Positions 9,501-40,461 of a stretch of 64,000 nt of DNA are shown in pieces; position 1 is the first letter of the stretch; every line of letters starts with the position of its first letter. Made by a program: the position numbers and the translations under genes. The stretch is taken from the NCBI GenBank assembly GCA_009869945.1, contig WIXG01000042.1:270630-334629 (forward strand), read 5' to 3'. The stretch is from Mesaphorura yosii (taxonomy: Eukaryota; Arthropoda; Collembola; Poduromorpha; Tullbergiidae). The notes under the pieces are model-generated. The model saw nothing but the letters and a program-made list of their open reading frames with translations, was not told the DNA's origin and did no database searches.

Positions 9501-12491
9501 CTTTCCATTTTAACCTACTTTCCTAGCTCAAGTGGAAATGACATAGCCCTGCAAATTTCTATTTCTTCATCTGCTCATTATTTTTCTGGTTCTGTTTCCT
9601 GGTCAGACCGTAAAGCCTGGTCAGCGCGTCCAGCACCCTGGCTCGTAGATTCGTATCTTATCGTTCTACGCAACAGCTCGTAGTTTACCTGCCCTAACTT
9701 CGAGAACGAATTGCCTTGAATTGTCGGTCGCTGAAACTGGAAACACTGCTTGCGTGCTACGCACTTATCTGCACCCAATTCCCTGCGCCAATTTTATCCC
9801 GGAAGAAAGATTTCATCAACTAGAAAAATATATTTTTTCAGTTGGGCGGAAATTAAATCCGTGATACAAGTAACGAGTATGAAAACCTTTCCTACCAGAA
9901 CAAGCGGCTTTTCACTCGTGACAACCTCGGTACAAGGAACTAGTCTGAGCTGTCACTTCTGATGTCTTTACTGCCAATCTCCTTGCATGTGCTACTTTCC
10001 TCTTTATTGTTTGCATAATTTCATGCATAATCTTTAGTCACGGCTCTTTAATACTGTCGGATATTTTTCTCGTAAAAACGAAATTGAAGAATTCTTTATG
10101 AAAATAATGGATGAAAGAATACAAAAGCAGGGCGAACAGCTCAGCATAGCGAATTTAAATCCTTCCTTTTCACTGGCGGACAGCCTGCTGACTGCTAAAC
10201 TCCAGTCCTGTTCGTTTACCTCACAATATACGGCAACCATGAACTACATTACGTGCTGGTGATCTTATGAGCAGGAGAGGATCGGGACCAAGACCGCTAT
10301 TACTTTCACTCATCTCTTCTTGCACGGAGCACAAATCCGATCCCGGCGCATAATTATGTTCCACGAATTCATTATGTACAAAGTACAAAAGGTGGACATC
10401 TTTTCCAGGTAATTTATGATTGAATTAGGAATTGCGAAATTTGAGAAGGGTGTAAACCGATAAGCCGCTTACTCTGAGTCTGGCGCGGGAAAGAAAGTTT
10501 TATGCTAAGCCCCGAGTAATCCTTTTCTCCAGCAGCACTGCATTAGGAATGAATCATGATCATGACCATGGGTATCAGTATAATTTACTTCGTCACAGTC
10601 GCCGTCATCTGGGCTACAGAAATTAGATCCCGCGTATGAAATATGAAATGATTAATGTTTACCTTTCCGCTCATGAATACGGGAAATATGAACGCAATGC
10701 TGATGCTCTTCTCTGTTCGGGATAAATTGGTCTCGTTTTACAAATGAAATTGGTTCTCGCTAATGCAAGTGTCAACATTACCGACTTTGCGCAGTACGGA
10801 GTTCCAGGTCCCAACTCGGGAGAAAGTTAGTCAGATCCTTTTCTCCGTTAGGAAAAGACGCCAGTCCAAGCGTTCCCTTGCCTGCCGCAAGGTGTGTGCT
10901 AGCACGTGCCAGGTCGCGAAAATGGAATTAAATATGCAAGATGTGATTAGAATACTGGTAACATGCAAAAACGCTTTTAGCCATAGCCGTGACGATTATG
11001 GCACGGGCCGGTTAGTTGACAGGCTAATCCCATTATTTGCTTATGACCTTGACGTAATAAGCCGGAACAGGAAAGAAGGACGAATTCATGTTAAAATGCG
11101 TAATATTGTAGCCCGGTGTTGGTGTTTACATTGGTGAGTGCATTGCAAATTTGGCATGATGTATAACAGAGTCAGTGTTTAGTGTTTGATCTCGTTTAAT
11201 TAATTAAACAATGTTGGACAAGTAAACAGCAATATGCCTGTAGATCTGACGCGGCAAGGTCGATGTCTGCTTCAAATCCATTCCTGAACCGCAGGCAAGA
11301 CTTTGTAGTGAAGAAAGTTTATAAGATTAATTTGTGCCTGTCAATTGAGGCCGCTGCTACTTTTACCAAACGCATGAGGCCTGCGTAGTGTAACTGTAAA
11401 GCCTGCCCGCGTGAGAAACGCATGATGAGAATTTCAAAATAGGTCTGGAGACAAATAAATCCTTCAACGAATGTCTTAATCGAGGTCACGAACCAATCCG
11501 ACACATTCGCAAGCTCCTTCTTATGGCATGAAATAAATGCGATCTGTCTGGCTCCTGGCTGCTAGTGCGCTTGCGCTGCGTACGTTTTGGCATTGACAAA
11601 TTAGAAAAAAATTGGAGCACAATAAAGAAAACACTTTGAGCCACCCGCGTAGCTGTAATACACGAGTGCAAGTCACGAGAAACTCTGCGCTGTAAATTCT
11701 CTGAAGAACTAGTTTAGCGATAGCGTTAGCACTGAACACAGGAGATGAAATATACTTCAATTGATGAGAAAAAATAGTTTTGAAGTGCAAGCGTCCTACT
11801 TTCACTCGTTCTCAATGCACGTACTGCGTGCACATCGGTAAGGAAATAAGTGTACCAAATTCAAATTCCGATCCAGTGAACATGTAAGTGTTGAAACTTC
11901 CTTTCCTTAGCACAAATGCGGGAATGACTTTGTCAACAAAGGAAACTGGAGCAGTGCAGCCAAGAGCGCTCTAAACTGGGACGCGACACGATACAAGTAT
12001 GAGCACGATGTGTGATTGGTCCATTAAATCCTTAAATTCGGGTTGACTGGATCGAATTCTCAATTCCCATTTCATATCGGCCACCAGCGCTGATACTGAA
12101 GGATAATCAAGGTGGCTAAGCTAAGCGTACCTGGTAGTTCCAAGAAATTAGACTGCCTCCTCGACTGATTCCTGCTGCAGTATGATTTGCTGGGGCTTGG
12201 AATTGGGCTTGTGTCTCCTCCAGTCGCAGTCGTAGCCTGAGAATCTCGTGAGCTTCGCCTCGAAGCCAAGAACGCTAAGTTCCCACGCGGGCTGAACGGA
12301 GACGTCGGCCGCGAAGATGACGGTGACGGCGATGGGACTGGTGAGGAGCTCGATGGAAGCGTTGATCGTGACAATAGCGAGCTCTCTGTTGTCAGATCTG
12401 TTTTGTCGGTACAATCTGAACTTCCGGACGTGCCAGTATATGACTTCCACTCCAAAGGAGCCGGGCGTGGACGACGTCGTTTAGTACTCAT
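599..12491 (-). CDS. Rgk: RGK-family small GTPase, tandem copy A
   Basis: Six coding exons read on the minus strand: 12491-12131, 6765-6573, 6071-5863, 3536-3445, 2748-2556, 873-599. They join in frame to 440 codons plus stop, all with GT-AG borders. Seen: a Ser/Pro-rich N-terminal region (about residues 1-220) with basic Ser sites RRQSNF and RRSKSN; P-loop GASGVGKS (228-235); DHPTN (278-282) where Ras proteins have DxxG; NKCD (336-339); ETSSG (364-368); a basic tail; and the terminus SKSCENLHVL with no CAAX box. Known of the family: Rad/Gem/Rem proteins have a non-canonical G3, a C-terminal conserved Cys motif, 14-3-3 and calmodulin binding, and they inhibit voltage-gated calcium channels and remodel actin. 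The start is the ATG at 12491, giving MSTKRRR as in copy C; the upstream in-frame ATG at 12608 is not shared in sequence. 5' UTR exons are not resolved. Confidence 0.93.
6766..12130 (-). other. Intron 1 of RGK copy A
   Basis: A 5.4-kb intron with no supportable exon on either strand. It holds the triple CRE-like site at 7980. A 172-codon minus-strand frame at 7138-7656 has no recognisable domain or splice context and is treated as chance. Confidence 0.7.
7980..7999. promoter_or_regulatory. Triple CRE-like site TGACGT x3 ending in TGACGTCA
   Basis: Three head-to-tail TGACGT units (7980, 7986, 7992), the last completing the palindromic cAMP-response element TGACGTCA at 7992-7999. It lies in intron 1 of RGK copy A. 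CREB/ATF binding is the known reading of TGACGTCA; an enhancer role here is inference. Confidence 0.35.
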
Positions 12492-15400
12492 TTTGAGACG
12501 CGTCTTACGGAGAAAACACAATTCAAGGTGAGCTGGTGTACTCCGATGTGGTTTGCTGGAATGTTGACCATGCAAAGCTACAGGTGAAACTAAATACGCC
12601 ACGCTCACTCACGAGAGAGATAACTGTTTCGCGTCATACGGCTGAAAGTTCCTTTCACAAGCATGAGACCAGACGTCTCATGTGTAGCAGTAGCGGTAGT
12701 AGAGCCGACACAGCAGAAAGTAGAAAGAGCGTGGTTCTCAGCTCTCGCCAGCCGCATATGCCTTGTGCATTAAAGCATGGAGCTTTGTGCCCACACTCCT
12801 GGGCTATCATAACTGCCATATTTTACCATAAATTTAATTTTTGCATTTTTCAAAATCTTCTGCAACCATTCACCTAATTAAAATTTGTGCGTTCATAAGC
12901 TGAATTAAAGTAATTCCATTCTCCGTATCCTGCTGCACGTGTTACCGGTTAATTCAGTTAAATGACGCTTCGGGGTTCTCTTCAATTGTTTCCCTTTACG
13001 ATTGCAATACGTGAAAGCATAGTCGCTGCCTTTACAAATGCCATTTTATGTGCCATTTCCTTTATTACCTTGTTAGGATAATTAGCCCGGATGTGTAAAT
13101 GTCATCCTGGTCGTTAGTCTCATTAGCTTCTCTTTGTGGACGTGTTCCTCGATGATGATTGTACCTTCACTTTATATTATATGATAGATGGCACATTGTG
13201 CGAAATCCATATGAACCCAGTAAAGACGACTGGGCAGCTTCTTTTCACAACATTTTAGGAAGGTCCCTCTTCTCTCCTTGAACGGAAAAACGGATTCAAT
13301 AAAATTGCGAATGATGCACTGCTTGACACTCACATACTCACAGTCGAGAGTCACTCATGTTTGTTGAGGAAAATCGACCAAATGAAGGTTGCTGCGTCTT
13401 CTCTCTCAGCCGAGATTATGAAGACAGCGTTATCAGTCCTAATACCATCCATCCACTGGCACCATTATTGTCCCTAAATAATAGACTAATACAAAAAGCA
13501 AAAAGTTGGAGACTTCGAAGGCTAGGTGTTCCTGGAACACCTTTCAGTGGCAATGAATAGAATGAATGGCAATTTTCGCAGGTACACGCCACGAGAGACG
13601 TGCTATAGAAATTGGAAATTATGTTTCATCCCCAGAAATTGAACCTAATCACGGATGGGCTTCTGATTGGATTAAAGTAGCGAGTGGCATCAGAAGGTCA
13701 ACGAAAGGTTAATCACATGTCGGAGTGTACAAAAGCAGACAGAGCATTTTCTGTGGCGAGTCTACAGAAAAGGGCGAGAAATCTCGATGGGGATCTCGTT
13801 TCATGTGGGCATTTTAGGCGTCGAATTGTTCGTCCCATCCAGGAGGTCTTCCGCTCCTCGTTGGCGGTACGTCTTTGCAACCCTGGCCATGATTAACGAC
13901 TATTGCAGCGATAATAGAACTGCCTCAAATCTAATATATTTACTGACTGCTGTAGATCAACAGGTTCAGAAACGAGTACATGAATTATTAATTCATTCCG
14001 ACCTTCTCGGCCGCGACCTGAATTCGCTTTTACCTCTTCCTAATTTCCTACTCTTCGATGCTGTTACTGCGTGCTCAGTTCGATCCATTCATTCCAACTT
14101 CCAAATGTTCAGAATGCGAAGGGAGTGAAAGTTTGTTGTTAACTGTTCACAAGTTTTGCTAATAAATTGCTTTCTGGCATACATGAAACTCATGTGCACG
14201 TTTAGAGCCTAACATCTAAGTTCGTGCATTAAACGATTATCTTAGGTTACTTTGATTAAAATTAGAGAAAGTAAATCCCACAGGGAAAGTGTTGCACGCA
14301 ACGGTGGTGCATTCGCCTTGCTCACTCAACTTTCATCTTTTATTGACATCTCCATCGTCAAGAATAATTTGTACGTCATGCGCACTTCCTGAGAAGAAGC
14401 TTTATGCGGTGTGGTTCAACGTACTGATATTTTCCCATGAAACTTTCTTCCACATAAGCACGATAACAGGAATAAAAGCTGTCGTTATCGCCTTGTATCG
14501 CTGCATCTATCATTCAAACAATTTGGCAGGCGTAATCCATCCGCAAGGCACGTGCATCCAATTTCTTTGGCAAAGGATCATAATAAGTTTGTTTTGGGTT
14601 GGGTGGACGACCTCACCGATTTAATCCATTCACTCACCTCAGAAGTACGAAAATAATTTCGATTTTGACTTTTAATGGGATTCGAATTTTCAGACAGCTC
14701 CATTCCAAGGATTTTGGCAGGGTTCTATATGAACGAGAGATTGAGGGATTGCATTGACTGAAAGGGTTGATGACCATGAACAATACAACAAATGCAAAGA
14801 TAATCCAACTTATGATGGCGCAAAGCTGTGCTTCAAGTTTCACTTACTAGAATATCAGCGGAGGAATAAAATTATATACAAACACACATTTCGTAGTCAC
14901 ACCGTTAATGTGCGCTTTGTTCTCTGCTGGACACCACTTAATCGCTCAAGCATTTTTGCAACCGCACTCGAACATGAAGCGCGGCATGAAATGTTAATTC
15001 AATTGTTTTGTTGTCAACTGGAGAGTAATCAAAATCATTCCAAAATTCCCAGATTCACTCGGCACGGCAGCGACTGTTGACAAAAATGTGGTGCACTTCC
15101 AGGAAGATTGTCGTGGAATTTCCTTTCCTTGCTGTGAATTGCGAACGATAATAAAGCGCTGAATCACTAAGCTTTGACACGCTGGGGCAGTCGAACGATG
15201 CTCTAACTCCACCCATTCCGTGTACTTCACTGATGATGTTTTGATGCCCTAATGTTTCGAGTGGGAACTTGAACCATGTCCGGGAGTCAGAAGTTGATGC
15301 GATAGTATTAATGTTGTCTGCTTGCTAAACACGTCTGTCCAGGAGTAGAATGGAATTTCCCAATCTGAATACCCTCAGACTCTTGTGCGCCTTGCTGACT

Positions 15401-15795: not shown

Positions 15796-18700
15796 CTACA
15801 AGACGTGAAGGTTTTCACATGACTTTGACTTTGGATCGTTCAGGCAGAGTTTCTCTAAAATTTCTTTCGCCAGTTGAAGTGAAACTGATGTTCTTCGTGA
15901 TGTCCGCTTTCGAGGCTCTTTAGTTTTATGCTTCTTCAGCAATTCTTTTTGCAATTTTTCATCATGAAGACGACACTGTTTCATAATGCCGACCAGCAGC
16001 TCGTCGACGTTGTGCTCTATTCCACTTGACGTTTCAATGAATTTGCAATCGTGAGTGCAGGCCAGACTCTTCCCTTCTGCAGAAAGGAGGTAGTGACATG
16101 TTAAAATATTCAGCGTACATTTAGAATTGCAAAATTGTAAAATGCTCAATGCATACCTTGAGAAGTTACGACGCGAGCGCGGGCCAAATCACATTTGTTC
16201 CCAGCAAGAATCACGGCTTTCTCTTTTGTAATTCCTTCTTGCCAGAAGTACCGCAATATTTCTGTTGCACATCGAAAGCTGGCTCGATCGGTGACAGAAT
16301 ACACAACAATGCATCCATGAGGCTCGTAAGTTGCGATTGAATTCTCGACCTGGAAGAAGAATCACAATTTTTCAATTTTGTAAGTAAGTAAGCGGCTCAT
16401 TAGGTAAGTTTCTGAAGTGTGAAGTCAGTCATCTTCCTAGCTTTAAAACTTTGAAAGCCCTTTAAGTAAGGGACTAAATTATTGATGCTGTCCTAGCATG
16501 TTGAACCAGACCTTGAATGAATTATGTATCAAGGCAGGTATCGAGCATGGTTCAGCATCTCGCTTCTCGTATAACATCCCGGAAATTAAATTATGCATGC
16601 ATGCACTTACCGACATTTCGTTCGCCGGATGATCAATGAACACGAGCTCAGACTCCTTCCCTTCCAACAGCACGGAGACTGTCCTTTCACCGAACTCATC
16701 GTCTGAATAAATAATAAGTTGTGAAACTCAGATCATGTTCCACTTCAACCTTCATTTTCCGGAATCCAAGAGCTGAAGCCACATTTCCTTTGTCTTATCT
16801 TATCGTATGAAATTCCAGTGACCTTTCAAAGCCTGATTTATTTGTAATTTTTAATACTATATTATGTGTGTCACATTTCCCGTATGAGTGTGAGCATTGA
16901 ATTCAGACTTCCTCATCTGCTTGGATTAGATACACGACTTTCTCCTGAAACTCTTTCTCTTATGATTTCACCGTAGTGAAAGCGCTGCACAGAGCCATGA
17001 GCATATTTGAGTCGTAACACTGATAAATTGCAATCATCTTCCTGATGGTTTGCATAACTTCGTGGAAAGCAGCGCTTGTTAATGCACTTGTCTGTTTTAC
17101 TTTTCCGCTGATTCAAATTTATGCTCAGCACTACGACTCAGGTATGAAAACACAGTCGGCGAATGAAAGAAAATGAGTTTTTTCCCTACGACTGCACTGT
17201 GAGATTTACGAGTGCATATGCTGGGCCAGTAAATCCTTTTTATGCATTGTTGAAGTAATATCCTTCATAACTGAGTTTCACTCTTTCCATTCATTGCTTC
17301 ATGGCGTGTGTATTGCCGTATTGCGTTTTAGTTTTAGTGATGTGTATTTGTTCAGCTTCTTTTGCTTCATTTTTATAACGAATGATAGTTGGCAGGAAAT
17401 CAGTTTAGCTATGCTATTTCGATTGGAATCAATAATCCCTTACTCCTACGTATTTCACTGGCACTGGTAAACAGGCTTTTGTTCTTTGACCCGAAGGCTT
17501 CGCAGTTCGTAAATGCCTTAAAAGACCAACGAATCAAGTACGAAATGTCGAACAATGCCTACCGCGATGCCTGTCTACCGTGAGACAAGCATAGAATTCT
17601 AAATTTTGTTTACCATATCTGCTGTTTTTATTTACATTAACATCTTGGGTCGTCAGCCAAGAACTGGGCCGACTATCGTCTATGCAACGTCTATCATTAA
17701 TCTTCCTGCGCTGCGTCATTTGTATTTACAGCGCAGGCAAATAAATCCGTGTCTGGGAGGATTTCATGCACATTTCACACAGCCTCTGCTTACCTAACGA
17801 AGCGTCGTAAGTATTGATGTACTCGGATGACAGGAATTGTTGTAGGAGAGAAGATTTTCCAACCCCCGCGGCTCCAAGCAAAGTGATGCGAAACTTTTCC
17901 AAGCTTACGCTCTTGTCGATATCGTCTTCATCTTCCTCGTTACCATCTTCTGCGTCTGAGATTGCCGAACTGCCGCAGCAGGATCCTTCGAATGGAGACC
18001 TTTCTCCGCTTAAATTGCTCTGCCTGTTACGGAAAACCAATTAGAGAGTTTTTTCGCAATTGTTAATAATGCTTTGATACTCGGTACAGAATCTGACCCA
18101 AGTTTGCATAAACTTTTTTTACTTCACTGTTTTCGGTGCTACTCAAATATTTTCGTTACTCACCGACTATTTGGTGACGAAGCCCTGCTGGTATTTGACT
18201 TGGAGTTTCTTTCGACAAGTGAATCACCACCATTGACAATACCCTTGCTCGTGATGTGAAAAGTGCGAAGTCTGTAAATGTCATCACGGATTTGGGAGCG
18301 TGGGTTGACGGGCAAGCTGCTGACTCGTGGACGAACGTACTCAATTACTGCAAGCAAGCAATTATTCACATTAATGGATGTGTTACTTCCTCTACTACCT
18401 TCGTAGTCGTGCTCTGATCGGAGGTGGAGGGTCGGGGTTAATAAATTGATTTCATGAGAATCAGTGCCTTAAAATGTAAATAACTCATTACAGGTAATGA
18501 ACACCCGAGCACTTCTCCGCATCCGAACACATTATATCATTCATTGACGGGGTCGTTCTGGAGATTAGAAAAATGGGAAACCCACCCTCCAAAACCACTT
18601 CCTTCTTAATAAGAGCGAATGGTCACTCTGTCCGTGACAGAAATAAAGCCCACCCTCTTTCTTTCTCGGGCTTTTCCCACGGAGTGGAAAAGTAAAGCTA

Positions 18701-21096
18701 GTTAATATTATAGAGACACTATTCACGAATTGACTCCGGAGTATCTCCAGGTGTTAATTCATGAAGTTTGAACGTCGAGCAAACACTCTTATATGATTAC
18801 ACGAATAGGGTGTGTCACTCGTTAATTTCAACGCATATGCAAAACCTGAAGTAGAGACTACTGGTAAAAGTGCATAGTGTAAGATAACCAATCCCAGCAT
18901 TATTTCATACAAATCTGGGGTTTAAACAATTTTCCCTCCTCGCAAGCACATAGCAATGAACAACGTAACCCCAACAACACAACATTGAACAACACACATT
19001 CTTGGCAACATTGAAGGTGGGCGTTTTGGCGCACAGTGGCTCCAAGTGTGATATAGTACTTTAATTTTTCCGCCTCGCTTGGCCTGACACCCTCCTTAAA
19101 TGAAAAGATTGAAAGACACGAAACAATCATAACTTTACAATTTAACTTTATAAGCTTACAATATTGGGAGGATAGGGGAAAACTTTGCAATCATTAAAAT
19201 CTTAAAATCATTCCTCAAGTCGCTTCCGCCGGACATAGTCATGAACAATTACATAATTACACATTGTGTACTTCAACACACTTAGCTTTTGTCAAGTCAA
19301 AATTGTTAGGCCTGCGGCCTATTTTCGCTGAAGCTTCTGTTTTGGGGTATTTGTGACCTGCGAACGTGCTCGAGGGACATCGTAGCTGTCACCGAGACCG
19401 ATTTTTGAGCGTCTGTCTCCACTTAAAAAAAAAAGCTACTCCAGTTTCTACATGTTAGAAATGTGATTTCTACATGTCCAATTCCGTACATACAGAAGTA
19501 GCTTAATCAAGCATCCGCAGAGCTCAATTTCCGTTCTTCAACATCACCCAGTCAGCAAACATTCCGCTTTTCGACGTACAAGTTCGTATCTAAATTATGA
19601 AGCGTTTTCCATATGAAATTAAAAAATAACGTGTGACAGAAAAACCGACAGACATTCACAAACCGACAAACACATTGAACATGTGCTAATAAGACTGATG
19701 AGAGAAACACTAATGTAGCTGACAGCTACCAATAACTACTATTTACTGACTTACTGGGTTCGAACCTTAATCGGGTGACACAAGCGAACACGCCTACCTG
19801 TCTAATTTCTCCTGTTCGCATCATTTGCCTAGGTTAGTGCTAGCTGACTTGTGCCTGGATCTAATGACAATAGCGAATGCTTTTGAATGACATGGATTTT
19901 ATGGATATGGAATTGCGTGCAATTAGTTGCGTGAATTTCCGTCTCGGTATTTCAACAACTGGTATCACTTGAGACGCATGCTGTTGAAATATGACACGGA
20001 TAATGGAACCATAGAATCGTTTTCTTTTTGGCAAACTTGAGCTAAAAGATGCAAATATGACACTGCTCATATGCGTGAAGCATAGAAGCATATGAATGTG
20101 TGGCATGTAATATTTTTACTAATCTTAAGTAAATTAATTTGGCTCTGGTCCTCTTGACTGACTTGAGCCGACTTCGTGTCTTTTCTAACTTTCGCCCTAT
20201 TATGTCTGTCTGTAATGAATTAGTCAATTAAGAAAATTAAGCTCAGCCAGCAAAAAACGAAAACAAACCACTACATCGATCAGATGGGCTAGGCGGGCCA
20301 GCACTCGATGGTGGAAAAGTTTTAGGTACCCCATCGGAGACCGTGGATGCTTTCAGCTATAAAATCATTGAATTCGAGTCGCCCGGAGGAACTCCGAAAT
20401 TGTGATATCCTGACTTTAAGTTTGTAAGGAAAAGCTCTTTCACGAGCAAATATTTTGATTTCTGCAACACACATTTTCTTAATATTTGTTTGGCTTCGCC
20501 AAGTGCGGCTACGTGGGAACATATAATCAAATATGGTATCTGCCAGGGTTCTATGACACAAAGAAAATAAAGTGGTATCTGTTAACAGTACTTCTTGATT
20601 GGAATTTGGACCTAAGGCGATAAGGCTATTTCTAAACGGTGAAGTTGAAGGGCTTGATATTTCAATACAAGAGCCACATAGATATGAGTAGGTGTAAAGT
20701 AATTGTACCTGGTAGTTCGAGAAAGTTGGACTGCCTCCTCTCAGTTTTCCGACAGGATCCTCTGGGGCTTGGGCTTCGGTCATACGACGCCCCCGTTGGT
20801 GTGTTAGCAGCCCCCGAATCTTTCGAACTTCTGCGTGACGCCAGGAAGGCCAAATTTCCTCGCGGACTAAATGGCGATGTTGGTCGCGAAGATACTGGGG
20901 ATGGCGATGGAATAGGGGATGACTCTGATGGCAGGGTAGATCTTGAGATTAGCGAACTACTGTCGGCGTCTGTGGAGGTTTCTGTTCTGTCCGTGTAGTA
21001 ATCAGAAGTCGAACTTGTCGACGTTCCAGGAGCAGATTTCCACTGCAGGGAACTTGGGTGAGCACAACGGCGGTACCGCCCGAGTCTCACGTTCAT
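15796..21096 (-). CDS. Rgk: RGK-family small GTPase, tandem copy B
   Basis: Six coding exons on the minus strand: 21096-20709, 18347-18164, 18023-17794, 16702-16611, 16349-16157, 16076-15796. They join to 455 codons plus stop with the same phases as copies A and C. Seen: P-loop GAAGVGKS, DHPAN at the G3 position, NKCD, ETSSG and the terminal SKSCENLHVL, so the GTPase core and the RGK signature are intact. It is the most compact copy; its last intron is only 80 bp. Peculiarities: the N terminus (MNVRLGRYRR) differs from the MSTKRRR/MSTRRR start of A and C; exon 2 lacks a three-residue stretch found in the others (EGG of LPEGGYN); and the RRSxS site of exon 2 is replaced by ERNSKS. The start is the first ATG in the open frame and is less certain than the rest. 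The product is probably a cytosolic or membrane-associated regulator like its neighbours. Confidence 0.92.
18348..20708 (-). other. Intron 1 of RGK copy B
   Basis: 2.4 kb, less than half the length of intron 1 in copies A (5.4 kb) and C (6.2 kb). No exon or repeat supported. Confidence 0.7.
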
Positions 21097-22024: not shown

Positions 22025-25000
22025 CTACAAAACGTGAAGGTTTTCACAAGACTTCGACTTGGAGTTTTGCAAACACAACTTGCCCAAAATTTCTCTCGCC
22101 AGATGCAATGAGATCGATGTTTTCGAAGCGTGAGTGTGAATGTGCTTCTTCTTTTTGTGATCCTTCTTGCTTCTCTCTCGCCTCGATTTCTCGTCTCGAA
22201 GTCGACATTGCTTGAGTATACCAACCAGCAGTTCATCGACGTTGTGTTGAATCCCGCTGGAGGTTTCGATAAACTTGCAGTCGTGGGCGCAGGCGAGGGC
22301 TTTTCCTTCTGTAAAACAAAAAAGGTGAACGAATGAGTACGTTTTCAATACTTCAGAAGTTCATTTTCATAACCGAATTAAAAATTAACTAAGCGCATAG
22401 CTTCAATTGTCAATTCATTTATACAAGGGACCAGTGTAATATATTCTACGAGGAATAAAATTGAATTATCTCAGCCCAGCATGGATAGACTTTATTTCAG
22501 TGCAGTGAAATGGAGCGAGTTCTTTCCTTTCACCTGCACTTTCTCTTGCCTGAATCTTCCTGTCCTCTTTCTCCTACTTTTGTAACTAAAAGCAAAGCTT
22601 TTGGGATGTATTCACTCTCAATTCACCTGCTCCTTTCGGAATAAGAAATTCTAAAGAGAAACATTTCCATTCACATCCGATTTCGGAATTAAACGCTGCT
22701 TTCACTCATGTCGTGCTTATTGCATAACTTCCAGGCAGCTTCTCATTTCCCTTTAATTGTTCATGGGACTGACATTTGAATCATTGAAAGCGTCCGGAGA
22801 AAAGCATAAGCACCTCATATCCTAAATGCATTAATAATACATGAGTGGAAAATCTGAAAATGTGGCGCTGCAAGAAAAGGAAAATGGGTCAACGAAAGTG
22901 ACTTCTGACACACACGCGGAGGCAAAAGTTTAATTGAGCGAGACAGAGTCAGTGTATAAATCAATCCAATTAGTATCTCCACTCCAAATTCCAACCCATT
23001 CAGAATCGAGTGTGCATTAAATTTGAAGATTGCTTTTGTTCCAGCATCACCGCCCATAACCCGCTCAGATCTTATGTTATTATACGTCAGCGCGTCGGCC
23101 GTGGTATTTTCATGTCTTACTCACAATTCGAATAGCCACTCATCTCTGTGAATGGGTTCGCTGTGATTTTAGTGAATATCATTATCCGATTTTCGAGGCA
23201 GACATCAGAACACTTCTCTTGTTAACAGGAGCATTCACCGGCGAAGTGTACAGTCGGTATTGTCAAGTTGCACAAGTTTTTAACATGGACGAAAGTCTAA
23301 TCATCCCTGGTGATGGTGTCTGGAGAATGCACCTAGATAAAATTTCTAGACGAATCTGTAGGAGGGAGGACTGTCTAACGATTCGAACTTCGTAAATGTT
23401 CAAGAGCAGTAAATTATAGCATATGCATGAATCGAGGCCGATTAAGATTTGATACGTACGACATGAAAAGAGACAGAAAGAGGCCAGAAAAGTTCACGCA
23501 ATTCAGAGTGGATGAGACAAGACCTGAAACGTCAACTTCAATTTTCTTTTCTCTAAATCAAATACGGAAAGATGTGAAGGTTGAAGTTCAATGGCCGTTC
23601 TTTGTCATTCTATAGTGTCGCATTGGCTGAGAAGATGAAGTCAAAACAGACATCACATCGATCATCATTGTTGCGGCCAAAAGGGTAAAGTTACAAAAAA
23701 ATATTGGACACCCGAGCACTTTCAGAGCCATTGAACTTGTCTTTGTGTGAGTCCATCATGGGAATGGAACATAAGGCTAGGAACGAAGACTGAAGACTCC
23801 ATCGCGTTCTTCTACAGTCTCAATTGAATCAACGCGAAACGACCCTCCCAGCAAACGAAGACGGTTCCGTAGCTTTGTTCTGCCAGTTCTCAGTTTAGTA
23901 ACTTTGTTTTGCTCTCTCAGTACAATTTAGTAATTATTGCTTCGGAAGTGCTGAACTTATTGACATAAAATTTTCTCGACGAGGGATTTTCAAAAGCCAA
24001 AACAAGTCACCGGTCAGTGCCCAACGTTCGGGATCTACTATTACGCTGCCTCGTGGTCTTTAGCTGAGATCGTCCAGTCGCAATTAACGCTTACAAGTAA
24101 GTCATTTTACTTTGGCTGAAGTTGACGGCAATGATTTAAAAAGAAAGACCGTCAAACCGTTGATTGCAGGGCTCTCACTCCTTGCAAGACCAAGATGCAT
24201 ATTAAAGAAGTGACTGTCAAAGGGTACAAGAGCTACGCCAATAAAATCGTCATTACTTTTCAACCTGGGCTAAATATCGTCGTTGGTCGCAATGGTTCAG
24301 GAAAAAGCAATCTCTTAACTGCACTGCAAATGATCCTGGCAGATGAAGAAAGCCGGAAGAAAACCCGCCAATCAATGCTTGCTGCCCAGCCCATTGCTGC
24401 TAATGCGTATCGAGGAGAGCCAGGCTACGTGGAAGTAATATTTGATAATCTGGATGGCTTTTTCCCAGAAGATTCGACGGAAGTGTCATTGAAGCGATTC
24501 ATGGGAGGCAAAAAGGACAAATTTTTCATCAACGGAAAGCAAGTCGAACGTTTTGACAAATACCTAGCGCAAGTGGGTCTGGTGACTCCGTACGCCTTCG
24601 TACAACAAGGACGTATCAATCAACTGGCAACGATGAGCGATAAAAATCGATTTGAACTGATGCGAGTAGTTTGTGGAGAAACTGGTTGGAGCAGTATTTT
24701 GGGTCACATCTCTAAAGTCAGACATGAATCACAAATTCTACTTGTGGAGGTTACAGACATCGTGAAAGGACTAACTTCATTAAAATCCACATTGAAGGAG
24801 CAAGTCATCCAATTAGCAAAGTACACCGAGGAGAAAGACAACAAGCAAGCTGCTGAGCACGTTTACTACTCCCGAGAATTGTCCAGAATTCAAACAGCGC
24901 TAGCAACATTGACAGAGAAGAAAAATGTTGTGATTGGCAAATTGAGCCAATCGAAACACAAATTGGAAGAGTACAACGGAAAGATTGATAAGATGAACTT

Positions 25001-28000
25001 ACGATTCTCACGAATCAAAAGAGAAGAGAAACGAATCAAGACGGAAATCGAACTTAACCAAGCAAAGGTACACAAGTTGACATCAGAAATTGGCCAATTG
25101 GAAAATATATGTAAAGACTACGAAAACAGTCAGTCGGCGCAACTTAACGATACAGGAATGGATTCACAACATGCTAAAATAAACTCTCTTCAAGAAAAAT
25201 TGGAAAAGATTGTGGCCAGTTATGAAAAGTATGAGAAAATGGCCGACGACCTTGCTCAACAAAGTAGTCGAGAAGAAATTAAGATCACACAGCTAAGCGA
25301 ACTCATGACTGAGATTAAGGGAAGCGGCTTCAATACTGACAGTCAGTGGAAGAAGTACGTCCAGACAAAAATGGGACAACTCCAAGAATTGCAAGCAAAA
25401 TCAGAAAAATCTGTGACTGAAGTGCAGACGTCAATTGCTACATTGGACAAAATGATCGAGGATAAGAGGAAAGAAATTGATATTCTTAGCGAAGAGAAGC
25501 ACACACGGATCAAATCTGTTGAGAAGATCGTGGCTAAAATTTCCCAGATCGAAAACGAAAAGCACAATCACGAAGCCGAAAAGCAAATCAATTTGCAAAA
25601 TTTGGTCTCCAGTGAAGAGAAGGTCTTCACCATCACCGAACAACTGGATCATCATCACTTAAAAATGAACAGACCATTCGGGGCTGCTGTAATGGGAAGT
25701 TATCAGGGCATGAAGAGAGTTTTAGAGTCGCTGAAACGCCAGGAAGACTTTGAGTCACCAGTAGCCTTTGGTTATTTTGGGACTGTCCTGGAAAACTTAA
25801 CCTGTGATAACGGTTTCGAAACAGCAGTTCATGTCGCAGCGGGAGCGAAACTCTTCCACCATATTGTTGCCACCGATTCAGTTGCACTCAAGTTGCTCAA
25901 AGAATATAATCATCTGCAATGCCGCTATGAAGTGAAGTTCATCGCATTGAATCGACTTCTCCAAGAAAACTTCGACTATCCTGACGACAGTCATACAAGC
26001 CCGCTGATTAAACATCTTAAGTTCAATGAAACCGTGAGGCCCGCAATGGAATTTGTTTTTGGGAAAGTACTCCATTGTGTGACGTCAGAAGTTGCATCAA
26101 GATATGCAAAAAGTTGCAAGCTCACTTGCGTCACCTTTGATGGAGATAAGGTATCCTCTTCGGGGGTTATGTCAGGTATGAAGTCGACATTTATCCAATG
26201 CCTTCCTTAACAAAACTAAATATTTCGATTTCGCCCTTGAGTATGAGTATTGTGCTTTTGACAGGTGGGTACCGTGACAGCTCTGTAAACATAGTTGGAC
26301 TAGAAAATGAAAGACGAGCTTTAACAGAGAAGATTAACAAATCGAAAAAGGTGCTACTTGATTTCAAGAAGTCAGTTGAAAATGGCAGTACTACCACCCT
26401 AGATCTAGCTAAATCCCTGGTGAAATGCGAAACACAGAAGGCATTTGAGAAGTAAGTCAAGAAGCCGTTTTGTGGTTTCAAGATAACGTCAACGACTGCG
26501 GCTGCCTTGAAACCACGATTTTAAGGAACTGGATAACTTGCTGAATAAATTAATTTCATTACATCTAGTGCTGAAATTCAAAAAATCATGAATGTGAAGA
26601 AGGCTCGTGGGGAAGAATTGAAGAATCTGGAACGGAGGCACGATGGAGAACAATTAAAACTGCATCGGTTGAAAAAATCACTGGTTGCAGCAATGGATAA
26701 CATTAAATATTTCAAGCAGCTTACTGATTCGGGTGCAATGCCTCAAGTCAGCGCAGCGCAGTTCAACAAATTGAGTGCGGAAATGAAAACGAAGCTGTCT
26801 AACCTGAAGGATTGCCGTGCGAAATTAGAATCGATAAGAAAGAAACGTGTTATATTGGAAAGACAACTGGAAGAGGCGAAGACGTAAGTTCGGAAAGTGA
26901 ACTTTTCGTAAATCGCAGCATTTTTTATTGTTTCTATTTCTCTGCTAGATCTGAGCAACTATCCGAGTCGTATATGGCCGATGGTTCGGCCTTACCAAGC
27001 ATGAGAAATCTTCTTAGACAACAAGCTGAACAAAAAATTAAATTGATGACAGATTCTGTTTTGACTGTGCAAGATGAAATCCATCAATACCAGAACCTAC
27101 TAGATCAGATTAAAAATCAGGTATTCTAAGACTTTGACTTTGCTGACAACTCATGCAACTTTTTTTTACACTTGCCATTTTCTGCGTTTCAGACTGTCAT
27201 GGACTCACAAAAGTCGGGAAAACTTCACGAAGCCAGTAATGTGCTGAAGGAAGAAATTGCAAACACTGAAAGGGAACTCAACAAACTGCAGGAAACTGCC
27301 TTTGAAGAACAGAATAAGTACTACAAGACAAGTGAGTTTTTACACAAGATTGGGGCATACCCTGCTGGAGCACCTGATTATTCAAAAGAATCAACATCTC
27401 GCCTATTCAAAATTGTAAAAAATGCCAATAAGAATCTCAGCAGTGTCCAATGCATCAATCACCGAGCGAACGAGCAGTATGAAGATGTGACAAGTCTTCT
27501 CAAAAAATCTAAGGAGAATGGGAAGTACTTTGAAACAGTGTAAGACATTTAACGATGCATTACGCACCTCATTTACGATAATTTATGTAGTTCCACTGAT
27601 TTGCAGCGAAAAGCGAATTACTGAACTACTGGATGAAATCGAAAAGAAGAAAAGTGCAATTTGCATTGACACTGTAAGGACGGTGCAAGAATCATTCCGG
27701 AAAATATTTCAGGAACTGGTTCTCAAAGCTAGCGGAATTCGCGGATATGGCCGATTTGTCATGCACGGTGACAGCATCGAGTTCACAGAAACTAATCGCT
27801 TGGAAGTAAGCTTTTCTTAAAATTGTTCTTTGCAACTCGTGTCACCGTTACCATATACCTAATCTGCTGCTGTCTAGGACGGAGAAAGATGGTGGGAAGA
27901 TAAAGAGTTCGAGGGCGCTTCACTGAAAGTGAGCTTCAAAGATTGGGGTGATGAGCCAATGCAACTGATTGACATTTTGCAACTTTCTGGTGGCCAGAAG

Positions 28001-31000
28001 TCGATTGTGGCATTGTCGTTTCTCTTGGCCGTCCAACATGCAAATCCTCAGTGCTTGTACGTGTTTGATGAAGTTGATCAAGTAAGTTGTGATAAGAGGG
28101 TTTAACTGCAAATTAACATGATCTACTCAGTTAATTTTTTCTGCTCAGGCACTGGACCCGTCCTACCGTCAGGCAGTCGCGCAGAAAATGAAGGAGCTGT
28201 CGAACAATGCCCAATTCTTGTGCACGACTTTTCGGAAGGAATTTGTGGAATATGCCGATTCGTTCCTAGGTGTCAGTTTTCGCAATCAGGTAACCACTAT
28301 TTTGTTATCTTTCAACAGTTTAAGCATTCGAATTTTTTATTTTGAATGACATGATTGAATTTCCCGCAGAAATCACAAGTTCGTCCTGTCACTCGTGAAG
28401 AAGCTTTAGATTTCGTTCAGCCCGAAAACAGCGACTTATCAACACCTGGCTTAGATGAATCAATCCTTACAAGTTCTGGAGAACCGGAGCAAAGAGGAAG
28501 TAGCAGTAGCTTCGAAGCTAGAAATGGGTGACGAAAGACTCGTCGCATTAATTAGGCAACTAGCCAAGTTCGATTTAATTCAGCTATACTACTTCTGTTC
28601 CATTTCTTAATATTTACCCTTGTCAGCTTTTCTCGGTTAATAATTGGAAATTATTAAAAACACACAATCCTTTGTTTTCTCTTGTTTCTCTGATGTCTTG
28701 TTTTCGCGTATTTTGAAATCAATTGAATAAGTTGAGAATTCTCTTACAGCAGTAGGGACAAACAGAGAAGTGAATGTGACAAGGACACACTTCCAAAACC
28801 TGAATTCCTTTGAATAAGCTGTATCGACAGGTGACATTTCAATGTGTTTCGCAGGTAGACGCATATACTTATTGACTGTTTGGTCTATTTTTAAAACGCG
28901 ACATGTAGATTTGATTTCCTAGCTCCATTCCGACGTTTTAGTCTATCCACCCACGACAATGTTACCCGGCACGACGTTCTTGCGTGGATGAGCACGGCGC
29001 AGCACAGCTGTTCTGACAGGCTTGTTCATGTACATATCAAAATCATCCTGGTTCTATCGAGTCTTGTTTTGATACTTCCCAATTGAATTTTGTTTTTGAT
29101 TTCCAACTACTAATTACAAGAAACCTTTTTTTTGGGGGGGGGGTATGAAAAGACCAGAAAGAAGGATCCTAAGTTTTGTGGACAGATTTTACATTCGTTC
29201 CATTCAAACGCTATCTTTGTTTCTTGCTGCGTCTTTGAAGTAGTACAATAAATTAAATTCGCAAGTTTGATGCTAAAAAGCTTGAGGTCGCAAAGAGAGA
29301 TTTCTCCAGTTTTTCAATCGCGCAAGATTAAAGACTCTGCGGTTCACCTTACCTTGAGTGGTTGTGACTCGAGCTCTAGCCAAATCACATTTGTTCCCAA
29401 CCAAGATCACAGCTTTCTTCTGTGTCATTCGTTCTTGCCACAAATATCGGAGAATTTCACTTGCTATTCGGAAGCTGCTGCGGTCTGTGACAGAATATAT
29501 CACAATGGTGGCATGTGGTTCGTAGGTCGCGATTGAATTCTCGACCTGTGGAGAAAAATGCGGTGCATTATACAAATTAGATTTCGATCTTGATAACAAT
29601 GAAAAGCTACAAGCATTGGTTTTCGCGATTGTGACAGAGTGGCAGATTGGTTCAGAAATTCTTTGTGTCACTGATATGTGATTTGTGATTTTTCACTGTG
29701 AAAGGTCATGCTAAGTGCCAACAACCTGAGGCTTTCTTCAGATGCAGTTTCTCTTCAATAATATTAAGTACAAGAATCAATAACTATAAATAAAGATGTA
29801 AAAATAGATGCAAATGCATAACAAAATGCATAGAAATTCTTCTTCTGTTGGACAGGAAAGCTTGCAACGAGTATGGCCACCGGAATAAGCGAACAAGACA
29901 GAGTCCACGAATGGCGAGCCCATAATAAACTTTTGATGGAAGTAGCAAACAAAACTTTACTCGTCTCGACATATTTATCTTTGAATATTGTTCCGCCCAA
30001 TCATCTGCACCTGCACGTCTGAGCACAACTCCAGCCACACCTGTCCTTGCAAAGCATTACTGTTTAGTGTGAAGTACAAGCAAGATCGAAGAGGCGGCGA
30101 GTCGAACTTTGCGCTTAATTTGGAATCTTTCTATGGTCGTAACAAAGCGGAGTTGTTTTGCCTATTGCTATTAAAAACTATTCTACGCAGTGTGCAGGTT
30201 GCGGCCAGGCGCTATTTTTACTATTTTAGCAAGCCTTGCGTTTGATCGCATCATAACATTAGTGGAAATCATCACATGCAGAAAGTGGCAGAGGCATCAC
30301 GTCAGGAATAATAATATCTCCACCTCAAAATCATCAAAGTCTCGGTTTTCGGTTCCAATTAAAAGCGCTCCCGATCTCCGGCCTCCAAAAACCGAACCAT
30401 AAAATTTTAAGGTGTTTAAATTTAAATAATAATATACTGTATGCATTTCAATCACAATCACCGTCCTCAACCGTCTCGAGAATGTAGAACGAGACCTTAG
30501 ACTTCAGACTCCAGTTCCAGACATCTGTTCGTTAAGTTCAATCCAACCCCGCCAACGCTTCAGCCTAATTCCCAATTTCAAAGTTCCTAGGTTTCTACTT
30601 CACTTTTGTAATTCCGGAAACGTTGGAACGCCAGGGCTTTCACACCGGTTGCCCAAATGAGCTGAAACTTTCACCATAGATCTGGAATTTCATGAGTTTT
30701 CCAGTAGTGTGCTCGGTTTTGCTGAAGCACTCTTGGTTTGGGCTTTGGATAGGGGATAAATACATACTCCGGACCCTGTATGCCGTGTCTAATAAACGCT
30801 AAATGCAACCGTCTGCTTTGCCTCAACAAGAAAATCCAGGTCCGGCGAAGAAAACCCACACGGAAACTGGGAAATTGGCCATGCCATAAGGCTAACCTTC
30901 ACCATTGAGCAATAAAACAAAGCAACAATAAAAACGCTTACAGTGAGGTAGTTACCGGTACTTAAATGTTAGGAAACACTGGCACGAAGATCGTAAAGCA

Positions 31001-34000
31001 GGAACTTACCGACATCTCGCTCGTTGGATGGTCGATAAAAACCATCTCCGACTCCCTGTTTTCAAGAAGAACTGAGATGGTCTTTTCTCCAAACTCGTCG
31101 TCTGAAAGCCACAAACATATGAATTTAGTGCCTTTTATCGCAAGTCATTAGAATAAAAAATTCACGTCGAGAATTGATTGCCTTCCTTCACCCGCCCCTT
31201 CCGTGCTCTAGTAAATACGCGCTTTCTTTCTTCCAATGAAGTAATTTGACAAGCGCACGTTTGGCTGTCCATTAAATGGCTGGTGTTCCTTGTGTGCTAC
31301 GCGGAATCGGAGGCACAAAAATTTAATTTGGCCCGTGATCGCCAAGTTAACTTTACAACACGTTGGAACTGTCGAAGTTGAAATACGGCGGTGCTCGGTG
31401 TTCGTGCAGCCTTCGTCATGATATGAAAATTTATACCTTCATGAAAGCGTAGGATCGTAATGATTTGCAAAGGTCATCTTGTCTCTGTACACAAGTGCCA
31501 GTTTTAAAGCACAGCGATGTAATGATCGACGCTTACGCAAGCAGGAAGCGCGTAAAACACGTGCCTCATAAAACGAGCACTAAAAGTAAAAGCAGGCTCA
31601 TGGCTGAATAAATGTAATTAATTATGAAGCAAGTCCTTAAAAATTTACAGCTCTTCTTTTTATTATTGTTTGACTTTCACCGTCAACCAATAATACAGCA
31701 CACACAACTCCAAACACACGAAATAAGGCCCAGCAGCTTAACGTAAACGTGCACCACGTGTAATCGTTGACCTACGCTTAGCAATGCAATGCACACGTTC
31801 TCATTAAAATTCCGGAAATTAAATTCGAGGCAATAAATTATTATAATTACGAGTACGAGATGGCAAAAGGGCCAGGTAAAGTGTCCGGAACTTTTCTCAA
31901 CGTTGAGTCATTTTGTCTTGAATTAATTAGTGCGCACACGATCTGATTAATTGGACCGAAAAGTTAATGTTATTGGACACGGTTGCAAAAGTTTGCAACT
32001 CTTTGAATTTTTGACTGCAAAACGTACAAAAGTCTCTGTTAACTTTTTTATGCCATTTCAAGGTTGCACTTGAAAGAACTTTGCCCTTTCTGCGGGGGAA
32101 ATTATGTTCATGTTCATGGTTGTACTTTAAATTAAATTAACGTAAATCTTGACTTGCTTCTGAGAATGCTCAGGCAGAGCTGAACGCTTCCTCTCCGTGC
32201 AATCTAAAGTTGAGGCTTCTTTTGTGCACTGGAAGTATTCGGGAAAGGATAAGCTAGAAAGTTGACACAAGCTTTGATTTGAACCACTTGAAAGTTTCAT
32301 CTTTTCATGCTCTCATACTTCAGAACCGGTTCTTGAACGTATCTGCTTGAATTCTTTTGTCCAAACTCGAACTCTCAAAACGAGTAAAGAGAGCGAAATT
32401 TAAGGTGAAATTCTCCGCCGCAAAATATGCCACGCAGGATAAATAGCAAATCAGAGCGTAATACAGCACAGTTAAGGGAAAGCACGAACCGTTGATTAAA
32501 CGGTGAAAGAATGATGACGTTTTCAATTGTACGAAATCTTCCACTGATGAGAGAGCGTGCTGCATTATCTGGTCTAAGATCTAACTTATCGTGCTCTAAG
32601 ATTTAGTGCAGCCTACCGGTCTGAAATAGCCTAAGCAAGGGTGAAAGTAGTGACTATTGAGCAGTCGAAACTGATACGGAATACGTCTATTATTCAGCAT
32701 TGACCTCATTTGCCACGCTGTGCTGTAAATACAGAAATGTCGAATGTATATCGTCGAAATTCGAAGTACTTACATCAAAGGAGGTGAAACGTAAAATGAA
32801 TGAGGAAAGGCTTAGGCTGGGAATCAAAGAACTACAAGAAGTGATGATCACAGGTTGTTGTCGTAAACTGTCAGACACAGCGGATACCACCCGGGAGTAT
32901 CGAAGCGTGTGCCAACAGTGAATGAAGGTTTAAGTTCCCTTTTAAGTCAACGCAATAAAAAACCTCAATGTGATATTTGCCGTTTCTTGCAGATTTATTG
33001 TAAAAGCCATCATTCTCTGTACAATTTCCACTAGACCCGTGACATTTTTTCGAGGCAAGGCTAAAGTTCACGCAACATTTCCTCTTTCGAACGTTAATAT
33101 TCATAATTCTTGAATGAATGAATTACTCTGCCCTGCCTTGCCTCTGGGAATACTTTCCTTTGTGAAGGACAAAACACTTGAATGATTACTTTTCCTGTTG
33201 AGGTCACAGTTTAAAGTCTGTTTTGATGATGTTAATGTAAAATTCGGCCATTGTGCTCGATCTCTTTGATGAAACCCATTCCCGTTGTAGCCCCGAACTT
33301 GCCACTTGTAACACCTGCGTCATGTCAGCCCATTTGCGTAATATGAAGTGTACGTATCGGTTTTGGGTTTGCTTTGTGTGTTTACATACTTCGAATTTGC
33401 AATCAATCAAATATGCGGGCCTACCTAATGAGGCGTCGTACGTGTTAATGTACTCAGAGGTCATGAACTGAGTTAACAACGATGATTTTCCAACACCCGA
33501 TGCACCGAGAAGCACAATGCGATATTTCGCTAATCGGTCATCGTCTTCTTCGGATGAAATGGCCGAACTTCCACAGCACGAGCCTTCCAACGGCGACTTT
33601 TCCCCGCTGAGGTTGTTTTCTCTGTAAATAAACCAGGCAGGGAGTCAGGCAAAGAGTGAGAGCATTCTTGTGAGAGAGAAAACGCGATTCAAGCACTCAC
33701 CTGCTGTTTGATGAAGCCATGCTAATGTTTGATCTGGATCTCCTTGGAATAAGCGAATCGCCACAGTTGACGACGCCTTTGTTCGTGATGCTGAACGTGC
33801 GAAGTCGATAAATGTCATCATGCAGGCGTGATCGAATATTGTAACCTCCTTCGGGTAAACTGCAGACACGTGGGCGCACATAATCAGCAACTGCAAAACC
33901 ATGGAATGACAATTATTATGCTCTGCCCTTCAAGGCTTCAGTCAGCCTTAAAAGGACCTCGTAAAATGTCTTGTCACTTTACTTAATGCTTCCATTTTAC

Positions 34001-40000: not shown

Positions 40001-40461
40001 TGCAAATCTCTTTGGCTTTAGCCTTTATCTGAACGTTTTGGAATAACTCAACTAAAAAGAGTTCATATTATGCATAACTTACCAGGCAATTCGAGGAAAT
40101 TTGATTGTCTTCTCTTCGCCAGCCGGTACGATGTTCTTGGGCTTGGTGTGGGCAGTGGACTCGTGTCACCGCCCGTGTGCGTCGTGGATTGCGATTCCCT
40201 CGAACTCTTACGCGAAGCCAGGAACGCTAATTTCCCTCTTGGGCTGATACAGGGCGAGTTCGGGCGCGATGCCGCTGCCGACGAAGGAGAATGTAAGGGT
40301 GAGAGCGATGATTCAACCGGATTTGTTGATCTTGATATCAAGGAGCAGTCAGCCGTAAAATCTGTGGTGTCCGTGTAGTCTGAGCTTCCGGAGACGCCCG
40401 TGGAAGATTTCCATTGGAGAGGTGTAGGACGAGGTCGAGGATGTCGCCTTCTTGTGCTCAT
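22025..40461 (-). CDS. Rgk: RGK-family small GTPase, tandem copy C (hosts SMC3)
   Basis: Six coding exons on the minus strand: 40461-40083, 33890-33701, 33621-33425, 31101-31010, 29545-29353, 22308-22025. They join to 444 codons plus stop. Seen: Ser/Pro-rich N-terminal exon starting MSTRRRHP, basic Ser sites RRQSNF and RRSRSN, P-loop GASGVGKS, DHPTS at G3, NKCD, ETSSG and the terminal SKSCENLHVL. Intron phases and the 92- and 193-nt exons match A and B. The gene is long because of introns 1 (6.2 kb), 3 (2.3 kb) and 5 (7.0 kb); intron 5 contains SMC3 on the other strand. The role known for the family is calcium-channel and cytoskeletal regulation. Start chosen: ATG at 40461, matching copy A. 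An upstream in-frame start at 40620 exists but is not shared. The gene stands head to head with MICAL. Confidence 0.92.
24097..24169 (+). other. Probable 5' UTR intron of SMC3
   Basis: A GTAAGT donor at 24097 and a TTGCAG acceptor at 24169 bracket 73 bp, a size like the other SMC3 introns. The acceptor lies 25 bp before the ATG. Inferred from splice consensus only. Confidence 0.4.
24195..28531 (+). CDS. SMC3: Cohesin subunit SMC3, divergent, nested in RGK copy C
   Basis: Nine coding exons: 24195-26175, 26265-26451, 26569-26883, 26949-27120, 27193-27539, 27607-27805, 27878-28081, 28149-28289, 28370-28531. They join to 1235 codons plus stop, close to the usual 1200 or so of SMC3. Seen: Walker A GRNGSGKS (31-38); paired lysines K106-K107 in a GGKKDKFF context, the spot acetylated in SMC3; Q-loop QQGRINQ; long coiled coils; a hinge (about 490-660) ending in SGGYRD; ABC signature LSGGQKS (1103-1109); Walker B YVFDEVDQ followed by ALD, the SMC3-type ending. 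SMC3 with SMC1 forms the cohesin ring that holds sister chromatids and makes loops. Sequence between the motifs departs widely from the well-conserved animal SMC3, so it may be a paralogue or a fast-evolving orthologue. A likely 5' UTR intron is 24097-24169. AATAAA lies at 29247. Confidence 0.93.
29126..29143 (+). repeat. T8-G10 homopolymer junction
   Basis: Eight T followed by ten G between the SMC3 stop and its likely poly(A) signal. It is prone to slippage and sequencing error. Confidence 0.8.
29247..29252 (+). terminator. Possible SMC3 polyadenylation signal AATAAA
   Basis: Canonical AATAAA about 715 bp after the SMC3 stop and 100 bp before exon 5 of RGK copy C on the other strand. I saw no closer canonical hexamer after the SMC3 stop, so this is the best candidate, unproven. 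Confidence 0.35.
29546..31009 (-). other. Intron 4 of RGK copy C
   Basis: 1.5 kb; no supported exon or repeat. Confidence 0.7.
31102..33424 (-). other. Intron 3 of RGK copy C
   Basis: 2.3 kb, AT-rich; nothing supportable on either strand. Confidence 0.7.
36907..37520 (+). CDS. Candidate small secreted protein (weak model)
   Basis: Not recognised. An ATG at 36907 opens a frame with a convincing signal peptide: a 15-residue hydrophobic core rich in Leu and a possible cleavage after ATFA near residue 27. A GTGAGT donor follows codon 37. A model that stays in phase is 36907-37018, 37196-37333 (acceptor TTCAG, donor GTAAGT) and 37480-37520, giving about 96 residues ending near a C-x5-C pair (CKNSKRC). 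Unspliced, the frame would instead give 70 residues, stopping at 37116. It lies in intron 1 of RGK copy C on the opposite strand. Evidence is only signal-peptide likeness plus compatible splice sites, so chance is a real alternative. No function is claimed. Confidence 0.22.

Follow-up and report, generated by a model that had tools for sequence, protein, structure and literature searches.

How a GTPase gene came to hold a second gene on the opposite strand of its last intron, and whether both are intact, is the question raised by a 64,000-nucleotide stretch of the collembolan Mesaphorura yosii (GenBank assembly GCA_009869945.1, 93 Mb in 1,127 contigs; positions 270630-334629 of contig WIXG01000042.1, hereafter C42), which was analysed as a whole and is called the window below. 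The assembly has at least 66 matches to Chitin_bind_4, a family of cuticle proteins characteristic of arthropods, which indicates an arthropod genome. The host is copy C of a tandem cluster of Gem/Rem/Rad-type (RGK) GTPase genes, and the nested gene is of SMC3 type. We consider it highly probable that these are two intact, interleaved genes. Judging from the constraint on its last exon, copy C would still gain this exon by splicing over a 7-kb intron, in which sits an old and strongly diverged SMC3 paralogue, here named SMC3-2, that came from an intron-bearing SMC3 gene. The 12 introns of its 5' half were lost, or never present, as a block, most simply through a copy of partly spliced pre-mRNA or through a DNA duplicate overwritten by cDNA. 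The SMC3-2 protein would most likely function as an ATPase of SMC3 type and, its hinge and ATP heads being preserved, use these to pair with SMC1; the resulting cohesin would be a specialised variant, perhaps of the germline, with an altered kleisin contact.

The host gene and the nested gene

The features of the two interleaved genes, in window positions, are:

22025..22308, minus strand, RGK copy C last exon: completes the GTPase domain, with the C-terminus ...SKSCENLHVL and the stop
22309..29352, minus strand, RGK copy C last intron (phase 1): 7,044 bp, splice ends read, hosts the nested gene
29353..29545, minus strand, RGK copy C exon 4: NKCD motif
31010..31101, minus strand, RGK copy C exon 3: DDEFGEKTISVLLENRESEMVFIDHPTSEMS
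33425..33620, minus strand, RGK copy C exon 2: P-loop GASGVGKSS, 5' boundary uncertain
40083..40461, minus strand, RGK copy C exon 1: serine-rich N-terminus, ...RRQSNFLELPG, the start being a likely ATG
24195..28531, plus strand, SMC3-2 (SMC3 paralogue): nine coding exons, 1,235 amino acids
24195..26175, plus strand, SMC3-2 exon 1: 1,981 bp, uninterrupted, where ordinary SMC3 has 12 introns
26265-26451, 26569-26883, 26949-27120 and 27193-27539, plus strand, SMC3-2 exons 2-5
27607-27805, 27878-28081, 28149-28289 and 28370-28531, plus strand, SMC3-2 exons 6-9
24097..24169, plus strand, probable intron in the SMC3-2 5' untranslated region: GTAAGT ... TTGATTGCAG, read by eye

The whole SMC3-2 coding sequence (24195-28531) lies inside the copy C intron on the opposite strand and is thus nested, as an earlier note on this DNA had claimed for an intact nine-exon SMC3-type gene; coordinates and splice ends were confirmed. 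Exon 4 of copy C ends in CAAG followed by GTAAGG, and the last exon, running from 22308 down to the stop at 22025, is preceded by TTTGTTTTACAG. The intron is indeed the last one, but it separates exons 4 and 5 of the five coding exons that we found, not exons 5 and 6; an additional short 5' exon may exist.

Copy C belongs to four tandem RGK copies, arranged head to tail on the minus strand, and not three as had been supposed: C, B and A lie in the window, and D precedes its start on the same contig (approximately C42:256230-266973, loci L008 and L009) with the same exon structure. All four are among nine matches listed in our RGK search, being the four strong ones on C42, and have the same coding exons: the first encodes a serine-rich N-terminus, the next three the P-loop, the switch region and the NKCD motif, and a last exon follows. 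Each copy ends in SKSCENLHVL, which fits the eleven-residue C-terminal signature of RGK proteins. The best PDB matches of copy C are Gem, Rem1 and Rad (top of 502 sequences, best 60 examined), and Pfam and PDB searches place its Ras-type G domain nearest Gem/Rad/Rem. A conserved C-terminal signature was described for RGK GTPases, a family of Gem, Rad, Rem1, Rem2 and Drosophila RGK proteins with known arthropod members (PMC4081519, cited here, as are all papers below, for part of its text); no cluster such as these four tandem copies is described in that part. A fifth, weaker RGK match (55% over 42 residues) was seen on contig C19.

The SMC3-2 frame is open across 1,235 codons and is interrupted by eight coding introns of 65-117 bp, all GT/AG. 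Intron 1 was set at 26176-26264, which yields the 1,235 amino acids and aligns with human and ordinary SMC3; the alternative 26171-26247, with the longest open frame (1,239 amino acids), was set aside for this alignment fit. For introns 4 and 5, the donors guided by human SMC3 (27067 and 27525) were dropped, and those at 27121 and 27540 keep more residues in frame. The product retrieves SMC3 first in a PDB search (human, S. pombe and yeast; E 2.4e-111) and contains the Pfam domains SMC_N and SMC_hinge. The nested gene is therefore of SMC3 type, as previously proposed, but it is not the ordinary SMC3 of this genome, nor its only one: ordinary SMC3 resides on another contig (C44), with 22 coding exons and 21 coding introns in a spliced alignment guided by human SMC3. 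In a single alignment, SMC3-2 is 29% identical to ordinary SMC3 (343/1166) and 27% to human SMC3 (311/1169). Since ordinary SMC3 is far closer to the human protein (646/1207 identical, 53.5%; 1,322 bits vs 377 for SMC3-2), SMC3-2 is a diverged paralogue of it.

Probable splicing of copy C across the nested gene

The two other RGK copies within the window, with ends according to their tblastn matches, are:

15799..21096, minus strand, RGK copy B: last intron 16077-16156, 80 bp
602..12497, minus strand, RGK copy A: last intron 874-2555, 1,682 bp

The last intron stands in the identical place and phase (1) in all four copies, and only in copy C does it hold a nested gene. Its length, from coordinates, is 7,044 bp in C, 2,568 bp in D, 1,682 bp in A and 80 bp in B, in agreement with the 7.0 kb, 1.7 kb and 80 bp previously given for C, A and B. 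Along C42 the four exon 4 sequences alternate with four last exons, which leaves only exon 4 of copy C as a partner for the exon at 22308 on this contig.

The proportions of differing synonymous (pS) and nonsynonymous (pN) sites were obtained from Nei-Gojobori counts over exons 2-5 only, for the six pairs of copies. In the last exon pS is 0.74-0.89 and pN 0.13-0.21, with 67-80% protein identity; in its 41-residue GTPase part, pS reaches 0.78-1.00 against a pN of 0.01-0.09 (0.01 for the pair C-D), with 83-98% identity. Synonymous sites between the copies are near or at saturation, and the three pairs that include C are as constrained in the last exon as the three that do not. Translation reading through from exon 4 into the intron meets a stop after 26 residues, without any last-exon sequence. 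Copy C is very probably spliced across SMC3-2, since its last exon is as constrained as those of the other copies and has no other partner on the contig.

Copy C might instead end in another last exon upstream of SMC3-2, the exon at 22308 being a relic. In human cases, nested genes caused introns to be retained and cryptic poly(A) sites to be used (PMC3192792), an ATTAAA-type signal is located on the minus strand at 28574, inside the copy C intron, and, as a point against the splicing that we prefer, a search of the minus strand at 21000-22310 gave neither AATAAA nor ATTAAA, so that copy C lacks a canonical poly(A) signal past its last exon as well. Nevertheless, the last exon has kept its splice ends and its stop together with a constraint equal to that of the other copies, and no AATAAA occurs on the minus strand at 28500-29352, so that we regard a relic exon as very improbable. 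Still smaller is the chance that the nesting is an assembly error: the arrangement was judged from assembled sequence, but the window contains no Ns, the exon order is regular on both sides, and the intron flanks searched (22309-23300 and 28560-29352) each match only themselves in the genome, in a search that skips very common words.

The closest pair of RGK copies varies by exon: in exons 2-3 it is A-B (87%), in exon 4 A-D (89%) and in the last exon, over its GTPase part, C-D (98%), a pattern that may reflect gene conversion.

Intron pattern and origin of SMC3-2

Ordinary SMC3 has 12 introns before residue 666 and nine from there on. SMC3-2 has none of the former and eight of the latter, lacking the one at human residue 1050. 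Random loss of 13 of the 21 introns would include all of the first 12 with a probability of 4.4e-5, so that the loss took one event or a few and was not piecemeal. For each of the eight retained introns the nearest intron of ordinary SMC3 has the same phase, and six lie within one alignment column of it. This correspondence indicates that SMC3-2 derives from an intron-bearing SMC3 gene, and the eight phase-matched introns rule out a fully processed retrocopy. It had been argued that the kept introns exclude a simple retrocopy; this stands for a fully processed one, but with none of the 12 5' introns kept, a semi-processed retrocopy fits. Divergence from ordinary SMC3 is about the same in the 5' and 3' halves of SMC3-2 (193/653, 29.6%, and 150/513, 29.2%; ordinary vs human SMC3 in the same halves, 56.5% and 49.8%), so that any overwriting of the 5' half would have been old, and recent overwriting by ordinary SMC3 cDNA is ruled out.

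Two routes could have produced this pattern, and we give them about even standing, each a little short of an even chance. In one, a pre-mRNA with its 5' introns spliced co-transcriptionally and its 3' introns still present was reverse transcribed and landed antisense in the RGK intron. Such a partly spliced pre-mRNA would directly give 12 contiguous 5' introns absent and eight of nine 3' introns present, and the similar divergence of both halves and the location of SMC3-2 and ordinary SMC3 on different contigs are in keeping with it. On the other hand, one 3' intron is missing too, no long A run was seen by eye downstream of SMC3-2, and a promoter had to be acquired. Rodent preproinsulin I is an example of a semi-processed retrogene, in which likewise some introns were lost and others kept; in comparison, SMC3-2 retains many 3' introns and is strongly diverged. 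In the other route, the whole SMC3 gene was duplicated or translocated as DNA and its 5' introns were then lost as a block by recombination with cDNA. The eight introns retained in phase agree with this, as do long intron-free blocks in the genes of this genome read as SMC4 and SMC1, whereas the halves give no sign of recent overwriting, and intron loss mediated by reverse transcription was described as favouring the 3' part of a gene (PMC3488318), contrary to the pattern of SMC3-2.

The insertion of SMC3-2 into copy C is the simplest reading, since among the four copies only C has the nested gene. The earlier note had placed an insertion or rearrangement during or after the RGK duplications; insertion fits, but this timing is unsupported, pS being near or at saturation and the intron of copy C matching those of A and D only over short stretches at the level of chance. 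Three points speak against the origin outlined here. Two of the eight intron matches are 23 and 17 columns off, in gappy coiled coil, and hold through phase and order; the intron-free stretches of the SMC4- and SMC1-read genes mean that block intron loss needs no retrocopy; and among repeats of at least 16 nucleotides, the copy C intron has only nine direct families and four inverted pairs, all of 16-25 nucleotides and imperfect, shorter target-site duplications not having been sought. The last intron of copy A was found to contain a stop-to-stop frame of 212 residues (1851-2489, plus strand) with no Pfam match, which is probably due to chance.

Predicted role and relatives of SMC3-2

The ATPase motifs and the hinge are kept in SMC3-2, as observed by motif alignment and Pfam: Walker A and the LSGGQ signature are identical to human, whereas the Q-loop differs in two of eight residues and Walker B in three of 12. 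KKD, with the two acetylatable lysines of SMC3, is also retained (GGKKD vs GAKKD). The two ATPase lobes are 48% and 54% identical to those of ordinary SMC3 and the hinge 37%; between ordinary and human SMC3 the hinge itself is only 46% identical. The neck, which in SMC3 holds the N-terminal domain of the kleisin, is not conserved: over residues 161-210, ordinary SMC3 matches the human protein at 43/50 positions and yeast SMC3 matches it at 15/50. SMC3-2 and ordinary SMC3 agree at 8/50, about as in the coiled coil that adjoins the neck in SMC3-2 (45/265). By sliding SMC3-2 along the neck alignment, 11/50 was reached at best, and the C-terminal neck follows a like trend (15/65 vs 44/65).

SMC3-2 is likely an ATPase that pairs with SMC1 and whose contact with the kleisin has changed or is missing. 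We also offer, tentatively and as rather unlikely in its entirety, a fuller picture in which SMC3-2 kept the SMC1-binding hinge and the ATPase and lost the kleisin neck, works in a cohesin with another kleisin or none, perhaps in the germline, and arose as a semi-processed copy in the RGK intron. Two considerations tell against such a role: the neck divergence is based on the alignment of a 50-residue stretch, and for sawflies, where sporadic SMC duplications include one of SMC3, it was suggested that the coding potential of SMC duplicates on long branches may be eroding (PMC13239252). The open frame of SMC3-2 would speak against such a loss.

A six-frame genome search with SMC_N, in which 13 of 56 candidates were scored and which thus sets a lower bound, found matches at seven or more loci (at least those on C143, C592, C325, C44, C42, C61 and C65), five of which were recovered with SMC_hinge. 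From their translations, three were read by eye as SMC4 (C143), SMC1 (C592) and SMC2 (C325). No SMC5 was recognised among the SMC_N loci, no dedicated SMC5 search having been made. Contig C425 has one Rad21_Rec8_N match and, of two Rad21_Rec8 C-terminal matches listed, the one that passes the cut-off; of three STAG matches listed, one lies above the cut-off. Thus a single RAD21/REC8-type kleisin was found and no second one for SMC3-2 over the cut-offs, in a search that could miss a REC8 that has diverged or a domain interrupted by introns. Two distinct SMC6-type genes (L006, C61:226500-236400; L007, C65:236500-246400) were named from PDB searches of 99- and 91-residue pieces. Unlike ordinary SMC3, the SMC1-read gene is free of introns over 772 residues (L003, C592, 4110-6428); in the SMC4-read gene, 667 residues are intron-free (L002, C143, 2506-4509).

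In a tree of five sequences, built on the N-terminal 660-680 residues, ordinary and human SMC3 group to the exclusion of SMC3-2 (support 79); the SMC3-2 branch has a length of 2.0, which makes long-branch attraction likely, and a position as sister of ordinary SMC3 is not rejected (approximately unbiased test, 0.24). Site patterns group SMC3-2 with ordinary SMC3 at 13 sites, with human at four and with S. pombe at 19. A pattern search for relatives in contigs of prokaryotes and viruses gave 44 and 88 matches, none of them confirmed.

A second, distant, long-branch SMC3 beside the ordinary one was described in Daphnia pulex (SMC3B) and as a duplicated SMC3 in Anopheles; SMC3B has 14 exons vs 21 and keeps the hinge and ATPase ends, and such diverged copies were placed outside the metazoan/fungal SMC3 clade, with expression evidence reported (PMC2680839). 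Compared by description, these resemble SMC3-2 as extra, diverged arthropod SMC3 genes with fewer exons that fall outside ordinary SMC3. Daphnia likewise has two SMC6 genes, but it has two SMC1 and three REC8 genes, where one SMC1 and one RAD21/REC8-type gene were recognised here, and the part of that source cited describes no RGK nesting of the Daphnia and Anopheles copies, in contrast to the nested SMC3-2 (PMC2680839).

Nested antisense arrangements as such are ordinary and common in animals. About 6% of D. melanogaster genes are nested, and 2mit is an opposite-strand protein-coding gene within one intron of Drosophila timeless2 (PMC3786989); the genes differ from those studied here, where SMC3-2 is a relocated multi-exon paralogue. 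What is unusual is the second SMC3, its split intron pattern with half of the introns lost and its changed neck. Within the searchable literature a second SMC3 is seldom described in animals, and no nesting of SMC3 in an RGK gene was recognised from titles and abstract starts, subscription journals lying mostly outside this scope. Should SMC3-2 pair with SMC1 and yet lack the normal kleisin contact, nature would have provided a test of which parts of the SMC3 surface are needed in cohesin. Its split intron pattern offers a clear instance in which to ask if genes can move as partly spliced RNA.

Elsewhere in the window, an exon of a MICAL-type monooxygenase was identified on the plus strand at 42743-43612 (Pfam Rossman_Mical, E 2.4e-38).

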